From an uncultured Bacteroidota bacterium (GTDB lineage: Bacteria > Bacteroidota > Bacteroidia > Flavobacteriales > Flavobacteriaceae): DNA of 64,000 nt. The notes below the pieces were generated by a model. The model did not search any database. It was not told the DNA's origin and saw only the letters and a list, made by a program, of their open reading frames with translations. Positions 22,657-54,525 of this stretch are shown piece after piece. The stretch covers positions 137,456 to 201,455 of the forward strand of contig CAIMMM010000006.1 of the NCBI GenBank assembly GCA_903842575.1, in the 5' to 3' direction. The position numbers and the translations under genes are program-made. The first letter of the stretch is position 1. Each line of letters opens with the position of its first letter.

Positions 22657-23088
22657 TTACTGACAAGCTATTTTATTGACTCTATTAGCGTGTCTTCCGC
22701 CTTCAAAAGGTGTGACTAAAAATGTAGCCACAATTTCTACTGCCTGAGGAATAGAAGTGAAGCGTGCTGGTATACTTATAATGTTAGCATCATTATGTTG
22801 ACGCGCTAAAGCGGCAATTTCTTTAGTCCAACACAATGCGGCACGGATTCCTTGATGTTTATTAACCGTCATCGCTATTCCATTTCCCGAACCACAAATT
22901 ACAATACCAAAATCGGCATTTTTGTTTTCAACATCAATAGCAACAGGATGTCCAAAATCAGGATAATCAACACTGTCAAAAGCATCGGTTCCATAGTTTG
23001 TAATTTTATGCCCGTTGGTCTCTAAATAGTGAATAATGGCTTTTTTATATTCTGGCCCGGCGTGATCATTTCCAATGGAGATTTTCAT
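22657..23088 (-). CDS. rpiB: Ribose 5-phosphate isomerase B
   Basis: MKISIGNDHAGPEYKKAI...GIVICGSGNGIAMTVNK; start adjusted to 23088. Confidence 0.95.
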   Translation of the reverse strand: MKISIGNDHAGPEYKKAIIHYLETNGHKITNYGTDAFDSVDYPDFGHPVAIDVENKNADFGIVICGSGNGIAMTVNKHQGIRAALCWTKEIAALARQHNDANIISIPARFTSIPQAVEIVATFLVTPFEGGRHANRVNKIACQ

Positions 23089-23115: not shown

Positions 23116-23733
23116 AAATTTAATAATATAATGACCAGTAATAGATGAATGGGGTGATTATTTTAAGCCTTTGATTTTAAAAGAACTAACTAAGTGTAAA
23201 AATTAAAAAATATTATAACTCTCTTTTAATCAATAGTTTTTCTATAATAAAAATATTAATTTTTTACATTGTTAATAGTAAAACCCAATTCGTTGATAAT
23301 CAGTTAACCTTAAGTTAACATTTATTGTTAACAACTTTGGATAGAAAAGAAGAAGTTTTTCTTGGTCGTATTATTATAATTTGTAATCCAAAATTGGTTT
23401 GAGAATATCAAATTTAGTTTCCCTTTTTTTTAGAAAAGTTATCACTATAAAAAAGAAGTTTTTCAACAAAAACCAATCTATAAAGTTATTTACAAAAAGT
23501 AGGTTTTAGAACTTATTAACAGTTGTTAATTATTTTAAAAAATACTTCAAAATGAATGATTTACTATTTTAAAACTATGTTGATAAATAAATGTAAATTT
23601 AAATAACTTCAAAAAGTTACTTTTAAAACAAAACTTATTATATCTATTAACACGCTATAATAACCATCATAAATTAAATTTAAATTTCCTTTTTATTTTG
23701 TTGTTTTTAATATGTGTTGACAACTTTTAAAGT
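23116..23733. other. Candidate chromosomal replication origin (oriC)
   Basis: ~600 bp noncoding AT-rich region with many (C/T)T[A/G]T[C/T]AACA-like 9-mers in both orientations, at a minus-to-plus gene orientation switch. Confidence 0.55.
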
Positions 23734-23973
23734 TTAAACAATTCTTAATTCATCTCTTCTTGAAAGATTATTTAAAATTTCTTTTACTTGCATAACATCG
23801 TTGGGGTGTACTTTTAAATTAATTCCACCGTATGCAAAACTAGCTAATGGATCAACAGCTACTACATTTTCATTTTGGAATAAATAAGGTATACCTTCAT
23901 TATCTAAAATTGTTTTTAAAATTGTTATTTCGTGTATAAAATTAAAAGTAGCTACCGTTACAAACTCATTCAT
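23734..23973 (-). CDS. DUF2007-type putative signal-transducing protein
   Basis: VTVATFNFIHEITILKTILDNEGIPYLFQNENVVAVDPL...INLKVHPNDVMQVKEIL. Confidence 0.75.
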   Translation of the reverse strand: MNEFVTVATFNFIHEITILKTILDNEGIPYLFQNENVVAVDPLASFAYGGINLKVHPNDVMQVKEILNNLSRRDELRIV

Positions 23974-24084
23974 CTTTTTTTTAATATAAAGGTAGTTAAA
24001 TGTTACATTTTATATAAATCTAATAGCTAATTTCTATTATCTAATTTCTTCTTCGTAATTTTCGACTTTATTACAAAAAGAATT

Positions 24085-26262
24085 ATGAGTAAGAAACCAA
24101 AAAAGTTTGGAAAAAAAGAGAAAACGTTCTCAGAAAAGATTTTAAAAATATTATCACAAAATGCCAATAAACCTTTTAATTATAAACAAATAGCAGCTGT
24201 TTTAGAATTAGATGATACCAAAAGTAGAAATGAAATCATAAAAGATTTAAAAATTCTTGCTGCTCAAAAAGTCATCATAGAATCGGAACCTGGAAAATAT
24301 TTAGTCAAAGCAATTAGTCAAGATTATTATGAAGGTACTATTGATATGACTTCTAGAAGAACCGCTTATTTTATTTGTGAAGATTTTGAAGAAGATGTTT
24401 TTATACCCACCAATAATTTAAATCGTGCTTTAGATAAAGATAAAGTAAAGGTTTATGTATATAATCGTCGAAGTGGAAAACGTCCAGAAGGGGAAGTTAT
24501 CGAAGTTTTAGAAAGAGCTAAAACAGAATTTGTTGGTGTTATTGATATTCAAAAGAATTTTGCTTTCGTTACCACTGCAAATGCTAAAATGTACACCGAT
24601 ATTTTTATTCCAAAAGATAAATTAGGAGGTGCCGAGCAAGGAGATGTTGTTGTTGCTAAAATTGAAGATTGGCCAAAAAGAGCCGATTCTCCTTTTGGTT
24701 CAATTATAAAAGTTTTAGGAAAACCTGGTGATCACGATACAGAAATCCATGCTATCCTTGCCGAATATGGTTTACCTTATGATTTTCCTGTAGAAGTTGA
24801 AATTTTCGCTCAAAAAATAGACACTACTATACAAGCCAGTGAAATTATGAAACGGAGAGATATGCGTGATACATTGACGTATACGATTGATCCAAGAGAT
24901 GCCAAAGATTTTGATGATGCCTTATCTTTTAAAAAATTAGAAAACGGAAACTACGAAATTGGCATTCATATTGCCGATGTTTCCCATTATCTACAAGAAG
25001 GAACAATACTCGATGACGAAGCTTTTAAACGAGGAACTTCAGTTTATTTAGTAGACAGAGTGGTGCCAATGTTGCCTGAAGTGTTATCTAATTTTGCCTG
25101 TTCGCTTCGTCCCAACGAAGAAAAATATACGTTTTCTGCCATCTTTGAAATCGATCACAAAGCAACCGTAATGAATCAGTGGTTTGGAAGAACCGTTATT
25201 AATTCAGATCAACGATTTGCTTATGAAGAAGCACAGGTAATTATTGAAACAAAATCGAATATAATTCCGGCAGACATTTCGTTGACAGGAAGTGATTTTA
25301 CAGCTTCGGATGAAATTGTAGAAGCTACTTTAAAACTTGATGAATTAGCTAAAATTCTTCGCAGAAACCGAATGAACAACGGTGCTATTTCTTTTGATAA
25401 AGTAGAAGTAAAATTTAATTTAAGTGAAGACGGCGAACCAGAAGGTGTTTACTTTAAAGTGTCCAAAGACGCCAATCATTTGATTGAAGAATTCATGCTT
25501 TTAGCCAATAGAAAAGTGGCGGAATATATTGGAAAACAAAAGAAAACCTTTGTCTATAGAATTCACGATGAACCCAACGAAGATAAGTTGTTTGCCATGC
25601 AAGCCTTGATTTCTAAGTTTGGTTACAAAATCGATTTACGCGATAAAAAAGATATTTCAAAATCCTTAAATCAGTTGATGGCGGATGTTAATGGCAAAAA
25701 AGAGCAAAATCTGATAGATACTTTAGCCATTCGAACGATGAGTAAAGCTAAATATTCTACGGATAATATTGGTCATTACGGACTAGCATTTGATTACTAC
25801 AGCCATTTTACATCTCCAATTAGACGTTATCCCGATGTGATGGTACATCGTTTACTGCAATATTATTTGGATGGCGGAAAATCGGTAGATACCGAAATTT
25901 ATGAAGAAAAATGTGTGCACGCTTCCAATATGGAAGGTTTGGCCACCAATGCCGAACGTGATTCCATCAAATACATGCAAATTAAATACATGCAGGATCA
26001 CAAAGATCAAGAGTTTGTGGGTGTTATTTCGGGCGTTACCGAATGGGGAATTTATGTGGAAATTATCGAAAATAAATGCGAAGGGATGTGTAGAATTCGG
26101 GAAATTAAGGATGATTATTACACCTTCGATGAAAAACAATATGCATTGGTAGGCGCTACGACTCAAAGCATTTTACAACTAGGCGATGAAGTGATTGTGA
26201 AAGTAAAAAATGCCGATTTAGTGAAGAAACAATTGGATTTTAATTTTATCAGAAAGAATTAA
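24085..26262 (+). CDS. rnr: Ribonuclease R
   Basis: RNB motif TIDPRDAKDFDDALS, HYGLAFDYYSHFTSPIRRYPDVMVHRLL, C-terminal S1. Confidence 0.96.
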   Translation: MSKKPKKFGKKEKTFSEKILKILSQNANKPFNYKQIAAVLELDDTKSRNEIIKDLKILAAQKVIIESEPGKYLVKAISQDYYEGTIDMTSRRTAYFICEDFEEDVFIPTNNLNRALDKDKVKVYVYNRRSGKRPEGEVIEVLERAKTEFVGVIDIQKNFAFVTTANAKMYTDIFIPKDKLGGAEQGDVVVAKIEDWPKRADSPFGSIIKVLGKPGDHDTEIHAILAEYGLPYDFPVEVEIFAQKIDTTIQASEIMKRRDMRDTLTYTIDPRDAKDFDDALSFKKLENGNYEIGIHIADVSHYLQEGTILDDEAFKRGTSVYLVDRVVPMLPEVLSNFACSLRPNEEKYTFSAIFEIDHKATVMNQWFGRTVINSDQRFAYEEAQVIIETKSNIIPADISLTGSDFTASDEIVEATLKLDELAKILRRNRMNNGAISFDKVEVKFNLSEDGEPEGVYFKVSKDANHLIEEFMLLANRKVAEYIGKQKKTFVYRIHDEPNEDKLFAMQALISKFGYKIDLRDKKDISKSLNQLMADVNGKKEQNLIDTLAIRTMSKAKYSTDNIGHYGLAFDYYSHFTSPIRRYPDVMVHRLLQYYLDGGKSVDTEIYEEKCVHASNMEGLATNAERDSIKYMQIKYMQDHKDQEFVGVISGVTEWGIYVEIIENKCEGMCRIREIKDDYYTFDEKQYALVGATTQSILQLGDEVIVKVKNADLVKKQLDFNFIRKN

Positions 26263-34941: not shown

Positions 34942-35046
34942 CAATTTTAGCGATTAGACAAAAGGCAAAAGCCATTAGTAAAGATTTAACTTTTATTGTA
35001 TCTTTAAATTTGTACTTTTATCGGTTGTAAAAAGAAGTGCTATAAA

Positions 35047-38000
35047 TTGGAGAATTCAAATCTTATCTATCAAAAATTAGAAAGCTTTATTAAAAAGTTT
35101 TACACAAACGAATTGCTGCGTGGCACTATTTTCTTTGTTGGTTTAGGCTTACTGTATTTTATATTTACGCTTTTTGTGGAATATTTTTTTGGTTGAAACC
35201 CACGGCGAGAACCTGTCTTTTTTGGACGTTTATTAGTGTTGAAGTATTTCTTTTGGTAAGGTTTATTTTGTTTCCCATGTTTAAATTATTTAAACTTCAA
35301 AAAGGGATAGATTATAATCAAGCATCGGGTATTATTGGGAATCACTTTAGTGAAGTAGGTGATAAATTGACTAATTTTTTACAGTTATCGGTTGATAAAA
35401 ACAGATCCGAATTACTATTAGCTTCTATTGAACAAAAAGCAAACACCTTGCGGCCTATTCCATTTGGAAACGCCATTAACTTAGGAAAAAATAAAAAATA
35501 TTTGCCTTTAGTAATTATCCCATTTTTATTTTTTGCATTCTTTTATTTATCAGGCAACAGTCAAATGATTTCTCAAAGTTTTAACAGAGTGGTGCATTTC
35601 AAAGAACAATTTTTGCCGCCAGCACCCTTTGAATTTGTGGTAGTAAATGGGAATTTACAAACGGAACAAAACAAAGACTTTCTATTAAAAGTAAAAACCG
35701 AAGGGAATATTGTTCCCGAAAACGCAATAATTTTCATTGGAAGTGAAAGTTACTTTATGGAAAATACCAAAGCAGGAGAATTTGAGTTTATTATACCAAA
35801 ACCATCCCAAAACGTTGAATTTCATATTGAGTCTTCAACAGTTTCTTCGAAAGAATACGAACTGAATGTGGTTGTCGTTCCTTCGATTGCTGATTTTGAA
35901 ATGGCTTTAAATTTCCCAGGTTATTTAAATAAGAAACCTGAAAATGTAAAAGGAACCGGAAACGCCATTATCCCGGAAGGAACCAGAATTACTTGGAAAA
36001 TGAACACAGTAGCTACTCAAAAAGTGGATTGGCTGGATGCGAATTCTAAAAATACATTTGGCAAACAAGACAATACGTTTTCTTTAACCAAAAATATCAG
36101 CCAAAACACCGATTATCAAATCCTTACTTCCAATAACAAAGTTCAGAATTATGAGAAACTAAATTATAAAATTTCGGTTGTCAAAGACCAATTTCCTACT
36201 ATTAATGTTACTAATGCTCCCGATAGTTTGCGAGTTGGAAAGAATTATGTCTTAGGACAGGTTTCTGATGATTATGGTTTGTCAAAACTTCAAATCGTTT
36301 ATTATTCTAAAGACACACCAAACCTTGTTAAACGAGGAATAATATCCGTTAAAAGAGATATTTACGATCAGTTTGTTTTTTCATTTCCGAGTAATCTTCC
36401 TGTAGAAGAAGGCATTTCCTATGAGTATTATTTTGAGATTTTTGATAACGATGCGCCTCATAATTTCAAAAGCACTAAGTCATCGGTTTTCAGCAACCGT
36501 ATTGCCACCGAAGCGGAGAAAGAAGACGAAATGATGCAACAGCAAAACGAGAATATTAATTCATTACAAAAATCTTTAAATACGCAAGAAAAGCAAATTT
36601 CCGAAATGGAAAAATTGCAAAAAATGGGTAAGGAAAAAGAAACTTTAGAATTCAAGGAACAACAAAAAGTGAATGATTTTATTCAACGTCAAAAACAGCA
36701 AGACGATATGATGAAAGAGTTTACCGAGAAAATGAAAGACAATCTTGAGAAAGTCAAAACCGATAAAAAAGACGAATTAAAAGAGGTTTTAAAAGACAGA
36801 TTGGAGAAGTCTCAGAAAGACTTAGTGAAAAACCAAAAGCTATTGGATGAACTTAAAAAGCTGAATGACAAAATCAGCAATGAAGAATTTTTCGAAAAAA
36901 TGGAGAAGTTCAAACAAAACAGCAAAAACCAAATGAAAAGTTTAGAGCAATTGGTTGAATTGACAAAGAAATATTACGTAGAGAAAAAAGCAGACCAAAT
37001 TGCCGACAAACTAGATAAACTTTCAGAGAAACAAGACAAACTTTCTGAAGCCGATAAAGAAAACAACGAAGAGAAACAGGACGATATAAACAAGGAATTT
37101 GAAAAAATTCAGGAAGAATTAAAGGATTTGGAAAAAGACAATAAGGAATTAAAAAATCCTGTTGAATTGCCAAAAACCGAACCTAAAGAGAAAAGCATTG
37201 ACGAGGATTTAAAGAACGCAAAAGAGCAATTGCAAAAACAGCAGAAAGACAAAGCTAAACCCAAACAAAAAAGCGCTTCCAAAAAAATGAAGCAAATGAG
37301 TCAGGACATGAAAGAATCGATGGATTCTGGAGAAATGCAGCAAATGGAAGAAGATGTTGCCATGCTTCGACAAATTTTAGATAATTTATTAGCCTATTCT
37401 TTTTCTCAAGAAGATGTAATGAAAGAGTTCAGAGGATTAAAACGCGGCTCGCCTTCTTTTAATAAAAATTTAAAGATTCAGCAGGACTTGAAACAGCAAT
37501 TCAAACATGTTGATGATAGTTTATTTGCCCTGTCTTTGCGTAATCCAAAAATTGAGGAACAAATCACAAAGGAAATTGGCGAAGTGCATTACAATGTTGA
37601 TAAGGCAATTGAAAATCTAGCGGAAGCCAATATACCTAAAGGGAATTCACACCAGCAATTTGCTATCTCATCATCAAATAAACTTGCAGATATGTTAAGC
37701 GACATACTAAACGGAATGCAGATGGAAATGTCGGGTTCGGGAATGGGGAAACCAAAACCCGGAAAAGGGGAAGGTTCTGGAATGCAATTACCCGACATTA
37801 TTAAAAAACAAGAAGGACTTGGCGAGAAAGCTAAAAAAGGCTTGAAAAAAGGCGAAAAACCAGGGGAAGGGCAAGAAGGGAAACAGGGCGAAAAACAAGG
37901 AAGTGATGGAAGCCAAGGTAAAGGTAACAAAGGCGAAAAGGGCGAAAAGGGTGTTGGACAAGGTGATGGGGAAGACGGAGAAGACGGAGAAGGAGATGCG

Positions 38001-38402: not shown

Positions 38403-38814
38403 TTTTAATTACGAACTAGAATTTACTATAGAAAATGAAGCCGCCATCGCTGATTGGTTGTCTAAAGTAATACTGTCCGAAAACAAAAAAGAAGGAGAAA
38501 TTAATTATATCTTTTGTGACGACGATTATTTGTTAGAAATAAATCAGCAATATTTAGATCACGATACGCTTACTGATATCATCAGCTTCGATTATTCTAT
38601 AGGAAATGAGCTACATGGAGATATTTTTATTTCAATAGAAAGGGTTTGTGAAAACGCTACAGATTTTAAAGTTTCCTTCGAAGAAGAATTAAAAAGAGTT
38701 TTAGCGCACGGTATTTTACATTACTGCGGATATAAAGATAAAACGCCTGAGGACGAAAAAGCAATGCGCATTAAAGAAGACGAAAAGATAAAAATGTTCC
38801 ACGTGAAACAATAA
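38395..38814 (+). CDS. ybeY: Endoribonuclease YbeY (rRNA maturation)
   Basis: LTDIISFDYSIGNELHGDIFIS, VLAHGILHYCGYKD zinc motif. Confidence 0.93.
   Translation: MISFNYELEFTIENEAAIADWLSKVILSENKKEGEINYIFCDDDYLLEINQQYLDHDTLTDIISFDYSIGNELHGDIFISIERVCENATDFKVSFEEELKRVLAHGILHYCGYKDKTPEDEKAMRIKEDEKIKMFHVKQ
38795..38810. promoter_or_regulatory. parS-like ParB binding site within the ybeY 3' end
   Basis: TGTTCCACGTGAAACA, matches the canonical TGTTNCACGTGAAACA. Confidence 0.88.
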
Positions 38815-38850
38815 TTGTGGATTTTCCAGAAGTTAACAGCAAAAAAAAGA

Positions 38851-40722
38851 ATGTTTTTAGAAAAATATGATGTCATAGTTGTCGGCGCGGGCCATGCCGG
38901 TTGTGAAGCCGCTGCTGCTGCTGCTAATATGGGTTGTAAAACCTTATTGGTTACCATGAGTTTGCAAAACATTGCTCAAATGTCTTGCAATCCTGCTATG
39001 GGCGGAATTGCAAAAGGGCAGATAGTTCGTGAGATAGATGCGCTTGGAGGGTATTCGGGAATCGTTTCGGATAAAACCGCTATTCAATTTAAGATGTTGA
39101 ATAAATCTAAAGGGCCCGCAATGTGGTCGCCAAGAGTTCAAAGTGACCGAATGCGTTTCTCAGAAGAATGGCGATTAATGTTAGAGCAGACGCCAAATCT
39201 TGATTTTTATCAAGAAATGGTTAAAGGTTTAATTATTAATAATGGAAAAGCAGAAGGTGTGAAAACATCTCTTGGATTGGAAATAAAAGCCAAAACAGTT
39301 GTATTAACTAACGGAACTTTTCTTAACGGATTAATACATATAGGTGAAAAACAATTTGGCGGAGGGAGAGCCGGTGAAAGTGCAGCATATGGAATTACGG
39401 AAGATTTAACTAATGTTGGTTTTGACTCGGGAAGAATGAAAACAGGAACGCCACCACGGGTTGATGGACGTTCATTGGATTATTCTAAAATGATTAAAGA
39501 GCCCGGAGATTTGATTCCTGATAAGTTTTCTTATTCAGACGAAACGAAGCCATTGACACATCAAAAATTGTGTCACATGACCTATACTTCTTTAGCTGTT
39601 CATGACATCCTCCGCGAAGGATTTGATCGTTCCCCAATGTTTAATGGAAGAATTAAAAGTATTGGTCCTAGATATTGTCCGTCGATTGAAGACAAGATTA
39701 ACCGTTTTGCGGATAAAGAAAGACATCAATTATTTGTTGAGCCTGAAGGTTGGAATACGGTTGAGGTATATGTAAATGGATTTTCAACATCTTTGCCTGA
39801 AGATGTTCAGTTCAAAGCATTACGTTCCGTTGTTGGATTTGAAAACGTTAAGTTTTTCCGCCCTGGTTACGCCATAGAATATGATTATTTTCCGCCTACA
39901 CAATTAAAACACACCTTAGAAACAAAGTTAATAGAAGGATTGTATTTTGCTGGACAAATTAATGGCACTACAGGTTATGAAGAAGCGGCGTCACAAGGAT
40001 TGATGGCCGGAATAAATGCTGCTTTAAAAGTTCAGGAAAAGGAACCTTTGATTTTAAAACGCGATGAAGCCTATATTGGAGTCCTTATAGACGATTTAAT
40101 TACAAAAGGAACGGAAGAGCCCTATAGAATGTTTACCTCCCGAGCCGAGTACCGAATATTATTGCGGCAAGACAATGCCGATTTCAGATTAACAGCCAAA
40201 GGCTACAAGATTGGGTTAGCTTCAGAAAAGAGACTCATAAGAATGGAAAAGAAGCAAAATGCAAGTCAAGCAATGGTTGATTTCTTTAAAGAAACTAGCG
40301 TAACTGTTGCGGAAACAAATCCTATTCTAGAATCAAAAGAAAGCGCAAAAATTGTACAAGCCGACAAAATGTTTAAAATATTTTCACGCCCACAAATTGA
40401 TTTAGAGGATATTCTAAAATTTGAAAAAGTAAAGGAATACGTTGCTGCAAATGGTTTGGATAAAGAGATATTAGAACAAGCAGAAATTCAAGTTAAGTAC
40501 TCGGGCTACATTGAAAAAGAAAGGAACAATGCTGATAAATTAACACGATTAGAGGAGGTAAAAATCCCTGAAAATTTTGATTACAATAAAATAAAATCCA
40601 TGTCGATTGAAGCTAAACAAAAGCTAAGCAAAATTAGACCAATAACAATTTCACAAGCATCAAGAATAAGCGGAGTTTCGCCAAGCGACATTTCAGTATT
40701 ACTAATCTATATGGGGAGATAG
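38851..40722 (+). CDS. mnmG: tRNA uridine-5-carboxymethylaminomethyl modification enzyme MnmG (GidA)
   Basis: YDVIVVGAGHAGCEAAAAAANMG...TGTPPRVDGRSLDYS; start adjusted to 38851. Confidence 0.97.
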   Translation: MFLEKYDVIVVGAGHAGCEAAAAAANMGCKTLLVTMSLQNIAQMSCNPAMGGIAKGQIVREIDALGGYSGIVSDKTAIQFKMLNKSKGPAMWSPRVQSDRMRFSEEWRLMLEQTPNLDFYQEMVKGLIINNGKAEGVKTSLGLEIKAKTVVLTNGTFLNGLIHIGEKQFGGGRAGESAAYGITEDLTNVGFDSGRMKTGTPPRVDGRSLDYSKMIKEPGDLIPDKFSYSDETKPLTHQKLCHMTYTSLAVHDILREGFDRSPMFNGRIKSIGPRYCPSIEDKINRFADKERHQLFVEPEGWNTVEVYVNGFSTSLPEDVQFKALRSVVGFENVKFFRPGYAIEYDYFPPTQLKHTLETKLIEGLYFAGQINGTTGYEEAASQGLMAGINAALKVQEKEPLILKRDEAYIGVLIDDLITKGTEEPYRMFTSRAEYRILLRQDNADFRLTAKGYKIGLASEKRLIRMEKKQNASQAMVDFFKETSVTVAETNPILESKESAKIVQADKMFKIFSRPQIDLEDILKFEKVKEYVAANGLDKEILEQAEIQVKYSGYIEKERNNADKLTRLEEVKIPENFDYNKIKSMSIEAKQKLSKIRPITISQASRISGVSPSDISVLLIYMGR

Positions 40723-40725
40723 TTT

Positions 40726-40741
40726 TGTTCCACGTGAAACT
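40726..40741. promoter_or_regulatory. Second parS-like site immediately downstream of mnmG
   Basis: TGTTCCACGTGAAACT, one mismatch to TGTTNCACGTGAAACA. Confidence 0.8.
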
Positions 40742-51104: not shown

Positions 51105-51551
51105 ATGTTACTAAAATGGAGAATAAAGCGATTTGAAGCACTATCTCTAAATGAATTATACCAAATACTGCATTTGCGAAGCGAAGTCTTTGTGGTGGAG
51201 CAAAACTGTGTCTATCAAGACATTGATGGCAAAGACCAGAAAGCACTTCATGTTTTTGGCGAAAATAACGGCAAAATTTTAGCCTATGCTAGATTGTTTA
51301 AACCAAAAGATTATTTCGAAAAGGCCTCTATTGGCCGTGTTGTGGTTGACGAAAGCAGAAGAAATAAAAAAATAGGCCATATTTTAATGAAAGAATCCAT
51401 TGAGGGAATTCATAAGCATTTTGGCGAAAGTGAAATAACAATTTCAGCACAATTATATTTAAAAAAATTCTACGAAAGTCATGGGTTTATACAAACAAGC
51501 CAAATGTATTTAGAAGACAATATTCCGCATATTGAAATGAAAAGGGAATAG
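51105..51551 (+). CDS. GNAT family N-acetyltransferase (ElaA-like)
   Basis: LYQILHLRSEVFVVEQNCVYQDIDGKDQKALHV...IGRVVVDESRRNKKIGHILM. Confidence 0.9.
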   Translation: MLLKWRIKRFEALSLNELYQILHLRSEVFVVEQNCVYQDIDGKDQKALHVFGENNGKILAYARLFKPKDYFEKASIGRVVVDESRRNKKIGHILMKESIEGIHKHFGESEITISAQLYLKKFYESHGFIQTSQMYLEDNIPHIEMKRE

Positions 51552-51553
51552 TG

Positions 51554-52366
51554 TTAGATTTTTGTGATGACCAGTTCCACTCTTCTGTCATACTCTGTTC
51601 CTTTTCCTAGCGGAACAGTGTTTCCATAGCCTTTAAAAGTCATTCTGGTTTTTTGAATTTTCTTAAAAAACAGATACTTGTATACCGATTGGGCTCTATT
51701 GATTGAAAGCTGTCGTTTTTTAGTTTCCATATCAATGGCTTCTTTTTGATATGGCGGGGTACAACATACATGACCTTGAACTTCAAACTCTAGTGTTTTA
51801 TATTTTAATAAAAGCTTGGCAATTTTATCTAAAGCAGTCTTTGTTTTGAATGTAAGTTTGCTGCTCCCTCTTTCAAACAAAACATTGTCTAGATACACAT
51901 GGTCGCCCACAACAGCATTTTTTGGGATAGTATTGTACATGCCGGGAATTACAATTTTAGGTAATTCTTTTAAATTTAAAACCACATCTACACGACGGTT
52001 TTTAGAACGTTTTTCGGGGAGATTTTCAACAATATCATCATCAATTAATATTCGACCTTTTCCTTCGATAGTTACAATTATTTTGCTTTTTATACCATTT
52101 TCAATGAATTTGTTTTGAATAGCAGCAGCCCGATTTGCAGAAAGTTTATAATTATAGGCTTCTTTACCAATGTCATCTGTGTAGCCAAAAATTTGAATGG
52201 ATTCAATTCTTGTGGAGTCTGTTTTTTTTATAAAATCAACAACTTCCCCCGCTTGTTTTTCGTTTAAAATGGATTTATCAAAGTCAAAATATACCGAATA
52301 CACTACTTCTTCTTGAGCTTGTAGAAGTCCGATAAACAATAAAGGCAGATATTTTAAGAAGCGCAT
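51554..52366 (-). CDS. OmpA family protein
   Basis: YFDFDKSILNEKQ; two OmpA-like repeats; FKGYGNTVPLGKGTEYDRRVELVI. Confidence 0.9.
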   Translation of the reverse strand: MRFLKYLPLLFIGLLQAQEEVVYSVYFDFDKSILNEKQAGEVVDFIKKTDSTRIESIQIFGYTDDIGKEAYNYKLSANRAAAIQNKFIENGIKSKIIVTIEGKGRILIDDDIVENLPEKRSKNRRVDVVLNLKELPKIVIPGMYNTIPKNAVVGDHVYLDNVLFERGSSKLTFKTKTALDKIAKLLLKYKTLEFEVQGHVCCTPPYQKEAIDMETKKRQLSINRAQSVYKYLFFKKIQKTRMTFKGYGNTVPLGKGTEYDRRVELVITKI

Positions 52367-52367
52367 A

Positions 52368-54005
52368 TTAGATTTTTAAAATTTTATTGTATTCGGTTGA
52401 ATTGGTTAAAAGCGTAGTGGCTTTTTTAATTTCAAAATTGTTTTTAATGTAATATTGATACAATCCTTCTTTATATTGATAACGTTTGATAATCTCATCT
52501 AGTATCAAATTCTTGATTTCCTTTTGATTTTTGTCGATTAAAGTTTCTTCGCTTTTTTGTAAAGCAGTCATTAATTGTTGGTATTCCGTTGCTATTGTTG
52601 CTTCAATTTTTTCTTTTTTAGCTTTTTCTAATGTGTTCTTCAAAGCGACCTCTGTTTCGGTATCAAAACTAATTTTTTCCTTTTTCAAAAAGGTTTTAAA
52701 ATCAGCTAAATCGGCATCGGTTAAAGTTGGAATTTTGTCGCCAAGTGCTGGATTTTTATAATAGTATTGGGTTACGTAATTAAAAATTCCATCATTTTTT
52801 TGTAATGCTTCAGCAATGGAACTTAATTTGGTTTCTTCTATTTGAACATCTGGTAAAATCCCACCACCATCATAAACTGTTCTCCCTTTCTTTGTTTTGA
52901 ATGCATTATAATTTTTTTCTTCAGTACGAATGGCTTTACCACTTTTATCTTTATGGGAATAATCCAAAGCCTGAATACATCTTCCAGAAGGTGTGTAATA
53001 TCTGGAAATGGTCACTTTTACCTGAGTCCCATAGGTCATATCAATGGGTCTTTGCACCAATCCTTTTCCAAAACTTCTAGCGCCAACAATAACCGCTCTA
53101 TCCAAATCTTGCAAAGCTCCTGAAACAATTTCCGAAGCCGAAGCACTCTTCCCATCTACAATTACTACTAAAGGGATTTCAGTATCAACGGGTTCCTTTG
53201 TAGTTTTGTAGGTGATATTATATTTTTCGTTTTTTGATTTTGTGTTTACAATGACTTCATCTTTTGATACAAAAAGATTGCATATATTCACAGCTTCGTT
53301 TAGTAATCCGCCGGGATTCCCTCTTAAATCTAAAACTATTTTGGTTGCGCCATCAGCTTTTAAGCTCTCTAAGGCTTCTTTGGTTTCCTGAGATGCTTTT
53401 CTGTTGAACTGTGTTAAAACAATATAGCCCGTAGTTTCATCAATTTTACCAAAGAAAGGAACCGCTTTAATTTCAACTTCATCCAAAACCAATTGTGTGG
53501 TCATTGGCTTCCCTTGTCGTAAATATTTAATGGCTACTTTGGTATTTTTTGCACCTTTTAAAAGTTGGGAAGCGTCCTCTTTAAAATCAGCTAAAAGCAC
53601 ATCGCCAATTTGTATAATTTCATCGCCGGCTTTAAGGCCGGCTTTGTCGGCGGGGAAGTTTTTATAAGGTTCTTTGATAATCACTTTGTCATCTTTTCGA
53701 GTTATCAAAGCACCAATACCAGTATATTCCCCCGTGTTGTTGATTTTAAATTTAACAACGTCTTGTTCATTAAAGTAATTGGTGTATGGATCCAAATCGG
53801 CCAACATGCTTTTGATGGCTTTGTCCATCATTTCAGCAGGATTGGTCTGATCAACATAGTTTTGATTAACGGTTTTGAATAATGTTGTGAAGATTTCTAT
53901 TTGTTTGGCAATTTCAAAAAAATCATCTTTAAAACTAGCCCCAACTAATAAAAAGCCACTTAGAATGACAGGAATAAAATATCTTTTTTTAATTTTCGAA
54001 AACAT
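52368..54005 (-). CDS. S41 family C-terminal processing peptidase
   Basis: PDZ domain, VIVDGKSASASEIVSGALQDLDRAVIVGARSFGKGLVQ. Confidence 0.95.
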   Translation of the reverse strand: MFSKIKKRYFIPVILSGFLLVGASFKDDFFEIAKQIEIFTTLFKTVNQNYVDQTNPAEMMDKAIKSMLADLDPYTNYFNEQDVVKFKINNTGEYTGIGALITRKDDKVIIKEPYKNFPADKAGLKAGDEIIQIGDVLLADFKEDASQLLKGAKNTKVAIKYLRQGKPMTTQLVLDEVEIKAVPFFGKIDETTGYIVLTQFNRKASQETKEALESLKADGATKIVLDLRGNPGGLLNEAVNICNLFVSKDEVIVNTKSKNEKYNITYKTTKEPVDTEIPLVVIVDGKSASASEIVSGALQDLDRAVIVGARSFGKGLVQRPIDMTYGTQVKVTISRYYTPSGRCIQALDYSHKDKSGKAIRTEEKNYNAFKTKKGRTVYDGGGILPDVQIEETKLSSIAEALQKNDGIFNYVTQYYYKNPALGDKIPTLTDADLADFKTFLKKEKISFDTETEVALKNTLEKAKKEKIEATIATEYQQLMTALQKSEETLIDKNQKEIKNLILDEIIKRYQYKEGLYQYYIKNNFEIKKATTLLTNSTEYNKILKI

Positions 54006-54123
54006 AGTTGTTGCTTTTTCTTTTGGATAAAATTAAGGGAACGAATATAGTAAATAACTTCAAATATAGTTTATTGATGTTGCTGCAAAATATTTTTCGT
54101 CAATTTATTAAATCAAAGAAGCG

Positions 54124-54525
54124 CTATTGATTTTCATTTCCAGCGTTCTGTAAATTCAGAAATTTTTCGAACAATTTTATTGTTTTTTCATTAATTTCTT
54201 GATAAGACAAATGCTCTTTGGTTTGATAAAAGAACATGAAGGCATATTTTTCTTTTAGATTATCTATAAGCAAGTGCTTATTCAAACGATAGCATTCTCT
54301 TAAAACACGTTTGAAATAGTTTCTGTCAACAGCTTTTTTGAAATATTTTTTTGAAACAGAAACGCCCATTTTTAAACGCCCATCTTCTTCAAAATCAGTT
54401 GTGACAAATACCAACCGCAAAGGATATTTACTTACCGATTTGCCTTCCGAAAAAAGTAAATCGATAGTTTTTTTGCTTTTAAGTTTTTCTGCTTTTGGAT
54501 ATTTGAAACCGTTCGTTTCCATCAA
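54124..54525 (-). CDS. rnpA: Ribonuclease P protein component
   Basis: KKTIDLLFSEGKSVSKYPLRLVFV...KMGVSVSKKYFKKAVDRNYFKRVLRECYRLNK. Confidence 0.93.
   Translation of the reverse strand: MMETNGFKYPKAEKLKSKKTIDLLFSEGKSVSKYPLRLVFVTTDFEEDGRLKMGVSVSKKYFKKAVDRNYFKRVLRECYRLNKHLLIDNLKEKYAFMFFYQTKEHLSYQEINEKTIKLFEKFLNLQNAGNENQ

Follow-up and report, generated by a model that had tools for sequence, protein, structure and literature searches.

The rpiB–rnr locus and its box array

We analysed a 64-kb stretch of a Flavobacterium draft genome (2.67 Mb in 178 contigs), here called the window, which covers part of the 212,586-bp contig C6 (G000:C6:137456-201455). It contains an AT-rich gap with rpiB to its left (22657–23088, minus strand; PF02502) and rnr to its right (24085–26262, plus strand; PF00773 and others). 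A translated open reading frame (23737–23973, minus strand) lies between the element described below and rnr and has homologues at the equivalent place in several loci; we take it to be DUF2007-like, the name given in the original prediction. Relative to that prediction, the start of the gap shifts to about 23089, because rpiB homologues align only from around residue 9–10 and translation therefore probably begins at ATG 23088 rather than GTG 23115.

The wider neighbourhood is as first described. Nearly all genes to the left of the gap are on the minus strand and many to the right are on the plus strand. Both mnmG (38815–40722) and rnpA (54124–54525) are present, as are two unstranded parS-like sites with the sequence GTTCCACGTGAAAC (38796–38809 and 40727–40740), 15.5 and 17.5 kb from the element, and dnaA is indeed absent from the window, being located on a separate contig. 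A second gap, between gltX and a DUF4175 gene (34945–35192, unstranded), holds the element in some relatives and contains no boxes in the window strain. GNAT (51105) and S41-peptidase (52368) genes adjoin rnpA about 30 kb to the right of the element, and their homologues in other genera (L099–L106) are found just left of rpiB, approximately 1–8 kb from it. This placement (window 51105–54525) would be accounted for by a rearrangement spanning the element, for instance an inversion about it.

The element itself spans 23262–23735 (plus strand; models R1 and R2) and includes a 244-bp core (23262–23505). Its first box, CTATTAACA on the minus strand (23270–23278; TGTTAATAG on the plus strand), contains a TGTTNA that is invariant in 37 aligned sequences. 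Two box-like sites follow: the weaker TTATCAACG (23291–23299, minus strand; CGTTGATAA on the plus strand), in which TTGA(t) is approximately 90% conserved, and AAGTTAACA (23312–23320, plus strand), in which TTAACA is mostly conserved. The box TTGTTAACAA (23325–23334, unstranded) is palindromic in the window and reads TGTTRAYAA in congeners; its TGTTNAYAA, at 23326, is invariant, and the box is kept in other genera. Three plus-strand boxes come next: TTTTCAACA (23460–23468), represented by a near-invariant TTNTNAACA in the genus and by TTATCAACA in other genera; TTATTTACA (23486–23494), with TTATNTACA about 90% conserved in the genus; and TTATTAACA (23513–23521), followed by a conserved TGTTAAT. 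The right end holds TTATCAACA (23578–23586, minus strand; TGTTNATAA conserved in genus and family), CTATTAACA with a conserved CNCTATAATAACCA block (23644–23668, plus strand), and TTGTCAACA (23715–23723, minus strand; TGTTGANAAC about 90% conserved in the genus), which is at a fixed spacing of 137 bp from the 23578 box. All eight 9-mers of the original prediction are present where they were reported, but the inventory had overlooked TTTTCAACA and TTATTTACA, which are among the best conserved sites.

The 23644–23668 segment, CTATTAACACGCTATAATAACCA, is the best conserved part of the element across the family, with TATTAACACNCTATAATAAC (23645) strongly conserved. Its CTATAATAAC portion does not form a DnaA box and might be recognised by some other factor.

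The boxes are strongly enriched. The element contains five TTRTYAACA sites, where 0.15 are expected, and seven YTRTYRACA sites, where 0.20 are expected (none of 20,000 dinucleotide shuffles reaches the observed counts). Nor are such 9-mers as common in other AT-rich DNA, where at most two TTRTYAACA sites occur in any of 75 further 475-bp stretches with GC content of no more than 25%, taken from the window and 20 congener loci. More weight attaches to conservation, because the box patterns were picked after the sites had been seen. The element is the sole strong box cluster within the 64-kb window, and likewise within 160 kb of the congener G018. The common box is TTATYAACA, with variants TTDTYWACA, and departs from the classical box TTATCCACA at position 6, which is A and not C. 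Classical boxes are ruled out as the basis of the array: at one mismatch, a scan of the window finds them neither enriched nor clustered in the element (one site against 0.14 expected, which is not significant).

The genome encodes an intact DnaA of 475 amino acids on contig C123. Compared with domain IV of E. coli DnaA (1j1v), this protein carries the substitutions P423A and T435A, affecting two residues described as base-contacting in E. coli (PMC5043019). Alanine is present at both positions in all congeners examined, and we hypothesize that the two substitutions cause the altered box.

Conservation across Flavobacterium and the family

We searched for RpiB in 60 congeners and extracted the rpiB–rnr gap from the loci obtained. 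In the window and 36 of the congeners, 37 sequences in all, this gap measures approximately 0.6–1.25 kb and holds the same boxes at recurring spacings, such as the 137 bp between the last two, so that the expected conservation of the 9-mers across Flavobacterium extends to both position and spacing. The segment equivalent to 23262–23505 is 243–245 bp long in 37 of 37 sequences, forming a nearly gap-free core, as would fit the need for a defined nucleoprotein complex. We also fetched 80 named loci (close relatives) from public genomes, including those of F. aquatile, F. johnsoniae, F. swingsii and F. fluvii, and the element lies in the rpiB–rnr gap in all 74 loci of Flavobacterium type that hold both genes.

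A sequence-only model of the 244-bp core (R1) has exactly one match in 30 of 32 congeners and never more than one per genome. The two congeners without an R1 match are G018, where box density and a profile do place an element, and G021, in which no element was located. Under strict filters R1 matches at least 24 of 201 family genomes. The element is recognisable in other Flavobacteriaceae genera, mostly at rpiB–rnr and in one genus (G107) at gltX–DUF4175. The models also give weak second matches within or next to the main one, in some cases on the other strand (L105 10290–10497, L069 1645–1763, L075 1664–1758 and window 23428–23593 on the minus strand), which suggests that the element has partial internal symmetry. 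Rnr proteins 85–96% identical to that of the window Flavobacterium are encoded on contigs of public metagenome bins that carry the names Rhizobium, Sphingobacterium and Klebsiella pneumoniae (L166, L182 and L207), and these bins are probably mislabelled or contaminated.

Strand composition and relocation of the element

The cumulative GC skew of the window reaches its minimum at 24074, just to the right of the array; this minimum is one within the window, the genome being a 178-contig draft. Five congeners place the minimum 134–641 bp from the core centre: G032 (minimum 885651, centre 885010), G008 (1040057, 1040370), G035 (1553344, 1553550), G026 (871230, 870700) and G031 (1115904, 1115770). 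The stretches used for these five were 80 kb long and centred on the element, and the values thus show precision, not uniqueness. Support for uniqueness comes from coarse samples of two whole chromosomes, in which the skew is negative on one side and positive on the other and flips at the element: between 810–830 kb and 900–920 kb in G032 (core at 885 kb), and between 1950 and 1970 kb in G055.

Ten congeners carry the element outside the rpiB–rnr gap, 11–75 kb away, between gltX and ybeY–mnmG, with DUF4175 preceding ybeY where present. R1 matches at this second site in G007, G009, G052, G060, G017, G042, G055, G030 and G015, and the G018 element (999420–999832, from the profile and box density) lies directly upstream of ybeY, 75 kb from rpiB. 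Several of these genomes keep the window's gene order rpiB–rnr–DUF2807–lysE–folB–glnS–band7–gltX. Their rpiB–rnr gap is box-free and 141–477 bp long, except that in G042 and G055 it is enlarged by other DNA. In G018 (C1 999420–1074579; L115, L116 and L032) the gltX–ybeY block is broken up: gltX and rnr are about 50 kb and 72 kb, respectively, from ybeY–mnmG and the element.

The skew minimum moves with the element. In G042 it falls at 1435156, inside the core (1434955–1435172), and in G055 at 1960485, 20 bp from the core (1960505–1960712), although element and minimum are 15 kb and 50 kb away from rpiB, respectively. Because both minima sit at the moved core, the switch in strand composition tracks the element rather than the genes. 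Where genes switch strand, a skew minimum is in part an effect of the coding strand, but the agreement of the minima with the moved element argues against coding strand as the cause. Seven complete congeners and the window thus have a local minimum no more than about 0.7 kb from the core. The skew of G018 is noisy, with the lowest point of 160 kb lying 25 kb from the element and clearly not at rpiB. Wherever it is well measurable, then, the minimum coincides with the element and does not fall elsewhere. The proposed rpiB–rnr site stands for the window strain, but in some congeners the element is not tied to these genes and the skew minimum goes along with it.

On a tree of 35 Rnr sequences the element has to change position four times, and well-supported branches force three of these changes, indicating that relocation between the same two gaps is recurrent; gains and reversals are indistinguishable on this tree.

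Other chromosomal landmarks are arranged around the same locus. The 16S rRNA genes point away from it in most complete genomes; in G042, with the element at 1435 kb, they are on the minus strand at 394 and 536 kb and on the plus strand at 1534, 1669, 2072 and 2164 kb. The parS-like sequence GTTYCACGTGRAAC occurs 10–25 kb from rpiB in most complete congeners and is rare elsewhere. At one mismatch there is no parS in G042 or G055, and in G018 the closest site adjoins the moved element, 75 kb from rpiB. The dnaA gene is approximately 0.6–1.25 Mb from rpiB in complete congeners that have both positions on one contig.

A probable chromosomal origin separable from its neighbouring genes

These comparisons make it very probable that the AT-rich element in the rpiB–rnr gap is the single chromosomal replication origin (oriC) of the window Flavobacterium. 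The argument is one of comparative sequence analysis and draws on where the element lies, how well it is conserved, the fixed spacing of its boxes, its coincidence with the skew switch and the joint movement of element and switch. The features expected of an oriC are present, namely a skew minimum, a cluster of variant boxes above chance, one element per chromosome and a DnaA encoded in the genome. A position beside dnaA or dnaN is not among them, dnaA being on another contig of the window genome. The suggestion that this origin is uncoupled from dnaA is borne out by skew, box conservation, divergent rRNA operons, clustered parS sites and the distance of roughly 0.6–1.25 Mb to dnaA.

Some 8–10 variant boxes (TTATYAACA and close variants), spread across about 480 bp in both halves of the element, would be bound by DnaA supplied from its distant gene, and growth of a DnaA filament would reach and melt the adjoining, very AT-rich DNA. 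The candidate DNA-unwinding element (23223–23269, unstranded) is placed next to the first box, where the least stable 40-bp windows of the gap start (23223–23244), a weak indication as the whole gap is AT-rich. Helicase loading would then give two forks travelling in opposite directions, one via rpiB and the other via rnr. In some lineages the whole element has moved to the second divergent gap (gltX/DUF4175–ybeY–mnmG) and would act as the origin there.

Long conserved intergenic DNA is often regulatory, and the element lies between divergent genes; it might accordingly serve rpiB, DUF2007 or rnr, either as an extended regulatory region or as a non-coding RNA gene, and its AT-rich repeats would then be bound by a transcription regulator. 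We consider this highly improbable. Some ten congeners keep rpiB and rnr adjacent and divergent while carrying the element between gltX and DUF4175/ybeY, and in G042 and G055 the skew minimum is at the moved element. Regulation of rpiB/rnr is excluded as the main explanation because element and skew minimum are separable from rpiB, the element moving without those genes. The non-coding RNA reading was dropped, as no Rfam family matches. A cluster of boxes is by itself no proof of initiation, and the element could in principle be a DnaA-titrating or initiation-control locus, like datA or DARS of E. coli, beside the true origin. Such a role is very unlikely given that each congener genome has at most one such element, that it lies within hundreds of base pairs of the skew switch, and that neither the 64-kb window nor 160 kb of G018 contains another strong box cluster.

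A further reading puts the origin at dnaA and takes the skew switch at the element to reflect gene orientation or an old origin. In its favour, dnaA is the conventional first gene in many of the family's deposited genomes (for example PMC5219744, PMC11278836). We regard this reading as scarcely credible: the skew has the same sign on both sides of dnaA in the G055 and G032 samples, most genomes lack rRNA operons diverging from dnaA, and the authors of a Mariniflexile study found dnaA to be out of line with the skew plot (PMC11278836).

Read as oriC, the element resembles the DnaA-dependent origins of the E. coli, B. subtilis and Helicobacter type in being a single site per chromosome with 9-bp boxes in both orientations, an AT-rich neighbour, a skew minimum, parS nearby and genes pointing outward. 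It differs from them in its box (TTATYAACA in place of TTATCCACA, with only one site within one mismatch of the latter), in not lying beside dnaA, dnaN or gyrB, and in shifting position among lineages. As in the basal unwinding system (BUS) of DnaA boxes and DnaA-trios, the boxes adjoin an AT-rich stretch of low stability, but by eye, with a BUS-type origin taken to have three or more clear 3'-(G/A)A(T/A)-5' trios no farther than 16 bp from a box, we see no convincing run of 3'-GAT-5' trios at the element, and the NAN pattern is uninformative in such AT-rich DNA.

Uncoupling of oriC from dnaA is not new in the family, since Ori-Finder users have already noted it. That tool predicts origins near mnmG and away from dnaA in Mariniflexile (PMC11278836) and Algorimicrobium/Bizionia (PMC12843772), and an origin about 1.9 Mb from dnaA in Elizabethkingia (PMC8994065). 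The Flavobacterium element resembles these Flavobacteriaceae/Flavobacteriales origins in its uncoupling and its neighbourhood (mnmG, parS). Unlike those reports, which give a tool prediction near a marker gene, the present analysis resolves the element, the box consensus, its conservation and the two alternative gaps. The papers searched contain no description of the exact element, the variant box or the repeated relocation, and no experimentally mapped origin for Flavobacterium and its relatives. One of them notes that some DoriC annotations disagree with true origins (PMC13342612).

More broadly, we think it likely that the Flavobacteriaceae origin is a separable module of about half a kilobase that has moved several times independently between two divergent gaps 11–15 kb apart (rpiB/rnr and gltX/DUF4175–ybeY) in an otherwise conserved gene order, and that it uses a box with A for C at position 6, a change paralleled by substitutions at base-contacting residues of DnaA. 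Genomes of the family are routinely started at dnaA; for an origin placed in this way, that is the wrong starting point for analyses built on replication, among them growth rates estimated from peak-to-trough coverage. With the 244-bp core as a sequence marker, the origin could be located precisely even in draft assemblies, and the core would also supply a defined fragment for building oriC plasmids in these bacteria, for which genetic tools are few. The repeated natural moves of oriC, with the local order of genes otherwise kept, would also serve as natural experiments on the relation of origin position to parS, to transcription of neighbouring genes and to strand composition.
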